Positions 43,747-45,183 of a stretch of DNA of 64,000 nucleotides are shown in pieces. The notes below the pieces were generated by a model. It made no database searches. It saw only the letters and a program-made list of their open reading frames with translations, and was not told where the DNA came from. How positions within the stretch are numbered: position 1 is the first letter of the stretch; each line of letters begins with the position of its first letter. The position numbers were made by a program, and so were the translations under genes. Origin of the DNA: Nocardioides baculatus (GTDB lineage Bacteria; Actinomycetota; Actinomycetes; Propionibacteriales; Nocardioidaceae); the NCBI RefSeq assembly GCF_016735675.1, contig NZ_JAERSG010000001.1:372001-436000 (forward strand). Direction: 5' to 3'.

Positions 43747-43773
43747 CATCGCGCCGCGTGCAGTTTTGCAAGA

Positions 43774-43795
43774 ACCTGCAATGCACAGACCTGCA
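43774..43795 (+). promoter_or_regulatory. Direct repeat ACCTGCA upstream of peptide gene
   Basis: ACCTGCA at 43774-43780 and 43789-43795, 15 bp apart, about 90 bp before the secreted peptide gene. It could be an operator for the neighbouring LuxR/TrmB-like regulator; this is only a guess from position. Confidence 0.35.
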
Positions 43796-43883
43796 GCACC
43801 ATCGCACTGACGCTGCCGCAGGGGGTGCGAGAGAATGGACAGGTCATCCCCTGTGACACCGTGACAATAGAGGTGAAAGTCAA

Positions 43884-44015
43884 ATGACTCCAGTACGCCG
43901 CATCGCCGCCGCCGCTCTCGTGGCTGCCCTCGGATTCGGAGCCGTCGGTCTTGGCGCAGCCCCGGCCAACGCCGGCATCGACACGAGCTGGGGCACCAAG
44001 GTCAAGAGCCACTGA
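43884..44015 (+). CDS. Tiny secreted peptide, candidate signal
   Basis: A 43-residue precursor with a textbook signal peptide: basic start (T-P-V-R-R), a hydrophobic core at residues 7-24, and a likely A-P-A-N-A cleavage site at 26-30. The predicted mature peptide is only 13 residues, G-I-D-T-S-W-G-T-K-V-K-S-H, with a D-T-S-W-G motif. I recall D-T-x-W-G tails in other small actinobacterial peptides next to LuxR-like regulators, but cannot confirm this here. AGAGGTG lies 8 nt before the ATG. It converges with a regulator gene across a shared hairpin, and the upstream region carries direct repeats. It may be a peptide pheromone; no export or processing partner is evident. Confidence 0.7.
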   Translation: MTPVRRIAAAALVAALGFGAVGLGAAPANAGIDTSWGTKVKSH

Positions 44016-44120
44016 TCCAGTCGTGCCATGATGTGCACGCAGTGAAGAAGCCGGGACACGGACCCCTCAACCCCCCACGAGTTCTGGTCTGGAGGCCTCC
44101 CCCACAGGCCCGTCCCGGCA

Positions 44121-44153
44121 CGAGGGCAGCAGCTCATCGAGCTGCTGCCCTCG
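44121..44153. terminator. Shared hairpin between peptide and regulator genes
   Basis: Perfect 14-bp stem CGAGGGCAGCAGCT/AGCTGCTGCCCTCG with a 5-nt loop, followed on the plus strand by CCTCGTT. Confidence 0.75.
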
Positions 44154-44175
44154 CCTCGTTCCCGGGGTCGCAGCG

Positions 44176-45183
44176 TCAGCTTGCGGGCTCGTCCGTCTCG
44201 CGCCCGGAGATCCCGCGCTTGCCCATCTCGTAGCCGAGCTGGAAGCGCGTCTCGACCTCGAACTCGTTCTTGAGGTCCGCGACATAGGCCGCGTAGGTGC
44301 GGGGGCTGACGCCCAGGCGCTTGGCACCAGCCGGGTCGGCGCGCCCCTCGAGGAGCATCCGGATGGTCATCGCGCGCTGCTCGGCGGCGATGTCGCGCAT
44401 GAGGGAGGTCTCGCTGCTGGTGAACGGGCGGGCGCGCTCCCAGTGCCGCTCGAACATGTCGACGAGGTAGCCGACCATCGAGCGGTCGCTGATCACCATC
44501 GCGGCGTCGACGCCCTCGTGGCTGGGGATGATCGCGATCCTCCGGTCGACCACGATCAGGCGGTTGAAGAACTCGTCCAGGGTGCGCACCTCGGCACCGG
44601 CGGCGGTCACCGCGGCGACGTACTTGCGGGTGTCGACGCCGCGCCGGGCGGCGTGCTGGTAGAGCGTGCGCATCTTGACGCCTCGCTTGAGCGCGGCGAT
44701 GTCACGGGCGCCGACGACTGCCCCGAGCTGCTTGACCCCGCGCCGGTCCTGCGGCTGAGCAGTGAGGAGCTCGTCCTCCGCATCGTTGACAAGCGAACCG
44801 AGGAAGGTGCCGATCGTCGCCTCTCCGCGGAGCTCGGCGAACGGACCGCCGACAGCGCTCGGTGAACGGCGCCAGGCGTGCGAGAGCGTGCTGAAGGCCT
44901 GTGCCCAGTGCGCCGACTCGGCGATCAGCTCCGCGCCCTGCTGGCCGAGCGGGGCCACGACCTGCGCCTGCACCGCGGCCGGGTCGACCGCGCGCCACTG
45001 GGCGCCGTCGTCGCTCTTGTTGACCAGGCCGACCTCGACCAGGAGCTGGAAGGCTTCGTGGAGCTCGCCGCGCTGGGCGATGCGTGGGTCGGAGACGCTG
45101 ACGCCGCCGGCACTCACGATCTCCTCGTAGAGCGGGGTGGAGTCGTCCTCGAACACGCCGCGTTCGTGCTGCCCGAAGGGCAT
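44176..45183 (-). CDS. LuxR/TrmB-like helix-turn-helix regulator
   Basis: A 335-residue regulator. The N-terminal 60 residues look like a TrmB-type winged helix, the centre (about 125-245) resembles the PLD-like sensor domain of TrmB relatives, and the C-terminus (about 265-325) is a LuxR-type helix-turn-helix with L-G-V-S-P-R-T-Y near 301. Regulators of this build are frequent in actinobacteria, and some lie beside very short secreted peptides, as here. The ATG at 45183 is preceded by GGGAGGTG with ideal spacing. It faces the peptide gene tail to tail, 160 bp apart. What it senses and controls is not shown by sequence. Confidence 0.82.
   Translation of the reverse strand: MPFGQHERGVFEDDSTPLYEEIVSAGGVSVSDPRIAQRGELHEAFQLLVEVGLVNKSDDGAQWRAVDPAAVQAQVVAPLGQQGAELIAESAHWAQAFSTLSHAWRRSPSAVGGPFAELRGEATIGTFLGSLVNDAEDELLTAQPQDRRGVKQLGAVVGARDIAALKRGVKMRTLYQHAARRGVDTRKYVAAVTAAGAEVRTLDEFFNRLIVVDRRIAIIPSHEGVDAAMVISDRSMVGYLVDMFERHWERARPFTSSETSLMRDIAAEQRAMTIRMLLEGRADPAGAKRLGVSPRTYAAYVADLKNEFEVETRFQLGYEMGKRGISGRETDEPAS

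Follow-up and report, generated by a model that had tools for sequence, protein, structure and literature searches.

The window, that is, the whole stretch of 64,000 nucleotides analysed here, carries a gene for a small peptide precursor and, convergent to it, a gene for a regulator. The features of the locus are as follows:

43767..43794, no strand: putative TGCA operator array, an exact match to TGCA-N6-TGCA-N-TGCA-N6-TGC with half-sites at 0, 10, 15 and 25
43774-43780 and 43789-43795: two copies of ACCTGCA, within a 14-nt direct repeat at 15-nt spacing
43807-43812 (CTGACG) and 43831-43836 (GAGAAT), plus strand: putative promoter hexamers with an 18-bp spacer (43807..43836)
43843..43857, no strand: element B, GTCA-N7-TGAC, an inverted repeat lying where transcription presumably starts
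43884-44015, plus strand: precursor gene with ATG start, 43 aa, MTPVRRIAAAALVAALGFGAVGLGAAPANA followed by GIDTSWGTKVKSH, the cleavage point set by eye
43884..43973, plus strand: signal peptide (first 30 codons of the precursor gene), cleavage predicted by eye between ANA and G
43974..44015, plus strand: predicted mature peptide GIDTSWGTKVKSH and stop, with the DTSWG core at 43980-43994
44121-44135 and 44139-44153, no strand: perfect inverted repeat of 15 bp with a 3-nt loop
44176-45183, minus strand: regulator gene, 335 aa

The ribosome-binding site GAGGTG lies 8 nt 5' of the precursor ATG, and the TGCA array overlaps both ACCTGCA repeats. We take the two hexamers to be a promoter on the basis of a promoter consensus. 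A preliminary description of this DNA had reported the 43-codon gene with its signal peptide, DTSWG core and ribosome-binding site, the direct ACCTGCA repeats upstream and the 335-residue regulator facing the peptide gene, and all of these were recovered at the positions above. The hairpin that it placed between the convergent genes is also present, with a stem of 15 bp rather than 14, and is probably a terminator common to both.

Exact copies of element B in the window's 4.23-Mb genome are confined to this locus, and for this reason we rejected it as the operator of a regulon; 13 more places match with two mismatches. In some other species its place is taken by a repeat of the type GGGCC-N8-GGCCC, the form GTCA-N7-TGAC being found in one clade, and at homologous places both arms change together.

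Six neighbours in the window were scanned (PEPCK, VWA, AAA, glycosyltransferase, GGDEF-EAL and one without a Pfam match), and among them we identified neither a modifying enzyme, the hallmark of a RiPP, nor a kinase. A PADLOC search returned no match. The genome encodes four SBP_bac_5 proteins that are candidates for oligopeptide binding.

When the first 20 codons of the precursor are compared across 42 close relatives, most of the variation falls on third positions (mean minor fraction 0.311 versus 0.144 and 0.138), and codon differences in close pairs amount to 2378 synonymous and 910 non-synonymous. This third-position bias and synonymous excess indicate that the frame is under selection at the protein level. 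No Pfam or NCBIfam family was found for the peptide. A scan for D[TS].WG near a stop codon, covering 68 loci (66 related ones and two from the window's own genome), placed the motif beside the regulator throughout with one exception, a second match at L035 that has no signal peptide.

The 66 related loci, each with a regulator homologue, came from a scan of a genome collection and comprise 54 of Nocardioidaceae type and 12 from Streptomyces or Streptacidiphilus. In the former group, a script identified an ORF with a signal peptide and a [DE]-x-[STGNA]-W core, convergent and just after the regulator, at 52 of 54 loci; L017, with DITWG, raises this to 53, and L028 has a short DTSWG ORF lacking a clear signal peptide. 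In the latter group, an adjacent divergent precursor occurs at 10 of 12 loci, slightly farther away at L062 and not at L057. The larger set yielded scripted candidates at 162 of 166 Nocardioidaceae-type loci, duplicates included, and a divergent precursor beside the regulator at 129 of 136 Streptomyces-type loci. Because candidates were filtered for [DE]..W, the invariance of D/E and W is partly circular, and conservation is judged fairly by the share of misses: 13 of 225 loci overall (4/166 Nocardioidaceae-type, 9/59 others) lack a scripted precursor, and L116, whose sole candidate is spurious, is a further miss. The four Nocardioides-type misses are L028, described above, a locus that looks frameshifted (L195), one with ASSWG and no D (L203) and one that shows nothing (L187). 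The expectation that the peptide would be conserved beside homologues of the regulator was therefore strongly borne out (Nocardioidaceae 53/54, Streptomyces 129/136). The D-T-x-W-G family suggested in the preliminary description stands as a conserved core beside the regulator, but proved too narrow and has to be widened to [DE]-x-x-W.

PEPCK is kept as a neighbour at 52 of the 54 Nocardioidaceae loci, and this synteny together with the conserved core led us to reject a chance neighbour. Orthologues of the regulator occur in 200 of 215 genomes of the window's genus at E<=1e-60 and in 329 of 392 genomes of a genus taken to be Streptomyces; the presence of the precursor was checked in the fetched loci, a subset of these. 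Among the named records listed, the closest regulator is that of Nocardioides glacieisoli (91%). Twenty loci with weak paralogues of the regulator (L072-L091) were also inspected and none has a convincing short precursor; of three stretches flagged there by the script, two lie inside frames of more than 1.8 kb and one in a frame of 282 nt.

The core differs between strains (DTSW, DITW, DSGW, EPTW and others) and is usually uniform inside one precursor, as in 46 of the 49 multi-copy precursors among 169 unique regulator-precursor pairs. That set omits duplicate pairs, the weak paralogues L072-L091, and L033, for which the script picked another ORF although a DTNWP precursor is present. In many Nocardioides peptides (L022, L026, L035-L038, L050 and others) the core is followed by a Cys pair in CGGYC, CGGWC or similar, which suggests a disulfide in the mature peptide.

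Streptomyces precursors carry repeated cores: among 126 unique ones, 12 have a single copy and 114 have 2-14, the core being uniform in 104 of these 114. Examples are DSTW ten times (L108), DIAW nine times (L094) and DTGW fourteen times (L321). Their promoters share AACATGATGC in 124 of 126 cases, and part of them (34/126) contain TGCAGGAACATG. Some Streptomyces-type loci (L122-L129) hold two to five paralogous regulators in tandem, and each such cluster has a single scripted precursor next to it; the paralogues are possible eavesdroppers or alternative receptors.

The predicted structure of the regulator (pLDDT 80, pTM 0.47) has an N-terminal winged helix, a long helix, a PLD-like sensor of the TrmB type (about residues 113-252) and a C-terminal HTH, so that the arrangement of winged helix and PLD-like sensor seen in the TrmB family is found here. 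A Foldseek search with this model placed TrmBL2 (E 3.4e-13) and TrmB (E 2.6e-8) on top, followed by proteins of the PLD fold, with 2f5t, the sugar-binding domain of TrmB, at rank 13. Whole-chain TM-scores to the matches are low (0.32-0.36), and these values together with the pTM make the domain placement uncertain. A Pfam scan gave no TrmB sequence model at E<=1 and no TPR domain; the best matches were below their cut-offs, namely DUF7436 at 21.9 bits (cut-off 34.2) and TbsP_N at 17.4 (27.1). GerE matches three Streptomyces-type relatives at 18.3-18.7 bits, below the cut-off of 23.5, and does not match three Nocardioidaceae relatives or the window protein.

If the regulator recognizes the peptide, its sensor should change when the core changes. 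Core changes were placed by parsimony, and we measured the excess of change in the sensor (residues 113-252) on core-changing branches. The Nocardioidaceae-type tree, which holds 128 regulators, has 24 changes at core residue 2 and 23 at residue 3; the trees used here are quick ones with long-branch warnings. The sensor-to-rest ratio in Nocardioidaceae is 1.22 for core residue 2 (p 0.0115), 1.32 for residue 3 (p 0.0015), 1.22 for both together (p 0.0005) and 1.30 for residue 5 (p 0.009), and 22 control positions range from 0.86 to 1.07, each with p>0.2. Changes in the Nocardioides signal peptide do not coincide with sensor changes on the tree. In Streptomyces, core residue 3 (1.47, p 0.0005), residues 2 and 3 together (1.25, p 0.0015) and residue 5 (1.27, p 0.003) give a signal; core residue 2 (1.01) and core residue 1 (p 0.24) give none, and 4 of 27 control positions reach p<0.05. 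The sample for the sensor test fell from 126 to 124 after the short regulators L062 and L121 were left out. Under a stricter rotation null the Nocardioidaceae values become 0.009 for residues 2 and 3 together, 0.012 for residue 3, 0.118 for residue 2 and 0.146 for residue 5, and the Streptomyces values 0.069, 0.138, 0.39 and 0.003 in the same order. The covariation thus gives moderate support to direct recognition of the peptide by the sensor, with a mixed replicate in Streptomyces.

Upstream of the peptide genes, the ACCTGCA repeats belong to an array with the consensus TGCA-N6-TGCA-N-TGCA-N6-TGM. Of 128 Nocardioidaceae-type peptide promoters, 100 contain it without a mismatch and 116 with at most two, at a median of 119 nt 5' of the ATG. 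There were no matches in 128 shuffled promoters (one shuffle each) and none in regulator coding sequence (249 kb, both strands counted). Across the genus, 169 of 196 genomes have 1-6 matches, many of which are a single palindromic place counted on both strands, and the reversed pattern matches in 4 genomes. By hand tally, the array occurs in 163 of 181 regulator-positive and 6 of 15 regulator-negative genomes (Fisher 1.4e-5); 18 regulator-positive genomes lack a perfect copy. The six regulator-negative genomes that have it are all fragmented (290-890 contigs), G493 nonetheless being 99% complete, and it is absent from five near-complete regulator-negative genomes of at most 30 contigs (G440, G101, G485, G490, G597). 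From this position and co-occurrence, the array is probably the operator to which the regulator, or else a paralogue of it, would bind.

The window's genome has a second perfect operator, upstream of a secreted metalloprotease of the matrixin/astacin-like kind. At L355:6509-7434 (G000:C8) the operator lies upstream of a secreted metzincin-type protease, a second copy of which, 70% identical, is encoded at G000:C8:8292-9059. A matrixin-like protease was matched in 71 of 147 genomes. Among the best-scoring 30 protease loci from these 71 genomes, the top 13 carry the operator (12 perfect, one with one mismatch), two more have it with two mismatches and 15 have none, so that an operator within one mismatch is absent from 17 of the 30; elsewhere in these loci there was no match in 95 kb of one strand. 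Two further operators precede M4 proteases. When thirty fetched operator loci were sorted by hand, 11 proved to be peptide genes, 4 were proteases and 9 were hairpin RNAs (L389 is a doubtful case); 6 stayed unassigned, among them L383 and L387 with a variant hairpin. In two species (L368, L369) the operator lies, as judged by eye, 44-45 nt 5' of ORFs for PadR-like regulators.

In the hairpin RNA a long stem is closed by the loop UCUCGGGA, which is invariant; the hairpin follows the operator at a distance of 163-168 nt in nine seed sequences. One example is:

L354:6228-6420 (G000:C3:304227-304450): hairpin RNA with the UCUCGGGA loop, behind an operator

In the seed alignment 20 of 35 pairs are changed on both sides. 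The seeds were found via the operator, which the covariance model built from them excludes, and this model matches 134 of 147 genomes of the genus. Among the 30 best-scoring loci, all 23 non-seed RNAs have the operator with at most one mismatch (20 perfect) at 163-177 nt from the loop. The RNA tracks the regulator weakly: it occurs in 125 of 135 regulator-positive and 9 of 12 regulator-negative genomes (Fisher p 0.07). Sub-threshold Rfam microRNA matches were taken as chance. At L365 and L367 the operator is followed by a small terminator-like hairpin with the loop CCCGAGA, which by eye complements UCUCGGG, the loop of the conserved hairpin RNA.

We propose, with a probability of about 0.7, that the locus encodes a peptide quorum-sensing circuit with a cytoplasmic TrmB-like receptor, a core that sets the pherotype, and protease and RNA targets. 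As read from the sequence, the signal peptide would export the precursor, which would then be trimmed to a short [DE]-x-x-W peptide; the Streptomyces precursors would yield several copies from one chain. An oligopeptide permease could re-import the peptide (four candidate binding proteins are encoded in the genome), and the PLD-like sensor of the neighbouring regulator would recognize it in the cytoplasm, as the covariation supports. The regulator would bind the TGCA array 5' of the promoter and, probably acting as an activator, switch on the peptide gene itself, giving positive feedback. Further targets would be the conserved hairpin RNA and, in some species, secreted metalloproteases, and the two variable core residues could act as a strain-specific pherotype. 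An operator 5' of a plausible promoter, a precursor, a receptor and public-good targets together make an anatomy that fits a pheromone with positive feedback.

The main rival is that the regulator controls an extracellular peptide that it does not itself sense, for example an inhibitor guarding the cell from the co-regulated metalloproteases. Snake venoms have Trp-containing tripeptides that inhibit metalloproteases and are encoded in tandem, and here too the cores are in tandem and end in Trp, while the operator precedes secreted metalloproteases of both metzincin and M4 type. Against this, core residues covary with the sensor, the regulator is more widespread than the matrixin-like protease (200/215 versus 71/147 genomes), and the core varies from strain to strain more than one would expect of a fixed inhibitor. 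We consider it improbable.

Less likely again is the precursor of a ribosomal natural product or bacteriocin with a pathway-specific regulator: a small precursor, repeated cores and the CGGYC pairs of many Nocardioides peptides would suit it, but it sits poorly with the absence of a modifying enzyme among the six scanned neighbours, the retained PEPCK neighbour and a signal peptide in place of a leader. We give slightly less credence still to the idea that some membrane receptor senses the peptide outside while the regulator answers another ligand such as a sugar. TrmB homologues, archaeal TrmB included, bind sugars, and both the 2f5t match and the adjoining PEPCK could be read this way; the covariation of sensor and core argues against it, as does the lack of a kinase among the same neighbours.

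Returning to the circuit with a cytoplasmic receptor, we found no description of this peptide-regulator system among the matches listed from the open-access literature; other journals or preprints may have one. Signalling in Streptomyces is known mainly via small lactone-type molecules, and cytoplasmic receptors of peptide pheromones are known mainly as TPR proteins of Firmicutes. On somewhat better than even odds, we view the loci as a widespread actinobacterial quorum-sensing family of D-x-x-W pheromones, many of them encoded in multiple copies, with a TrmB/PLD-like receptor, sRNA and metalloprotease output, pherotypes set by the x-x residues and, possibly, paralogous eavesdroppers. If true, a near-core peptide circuit whose receptor has another fold would give the main antibiotic producers among bacteria a further signalling language. 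An old question would also become testable, that of the oligopeptide that Streptomyces imports as a developmental signal.

For BldK of Streptomyces, an imported oligopeptide signal is postulated in the account given in PMC10067837, and import of an oligopeptide is likewise what we suppose at this locus. That the D-x-x-W peptide of Streptomyces is itself the BldK-imported developmental signal is conceivable, but we think it unlikely. The hairpin RNA, which sits behind a putative quorum operator, recalls the quorum-regulated sRNAs of Vibrio (Qrr), but differs from them in having no Rfam match at the gathering score. The regulator resembles archaeal TrmB and TrmBL2, its top Foldseek matches, in its winged helix and PLD-like sensor, and differs from them in its extra C-terminal HTH, its peptide partner and its bacterial host. 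PlcR activates itself and has protease targets, and both features have probable parallels in the present circuit. The RRNPPA systems of Firmicutes (PlcR-PapR, Rgg-SHP, ComR-XIP, AimR) are similar in pairing an exported precursor with an adjacent DNA-binding regulator; such a precursor, with predicted export, is present at this locus and its relatives. As outlined in PMC9765709, these systems consist of an adjacent gene pair, an exported precursor, a short peptide and a DNA-binding cytoplasmic receptor. In contrast to the TPR receptors of RRNPPA, the receptor here combines a TrmB/PLD-like fold with a C-terminal HTH that may be LuxR-like; the peptide family, operator and phylum are also different, and a precursor may hold up to 14 copies. 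Because the defining TPR fold is absent, we place this circuit, which would work in an RRNPPA-like manner, outside RRNPPA.
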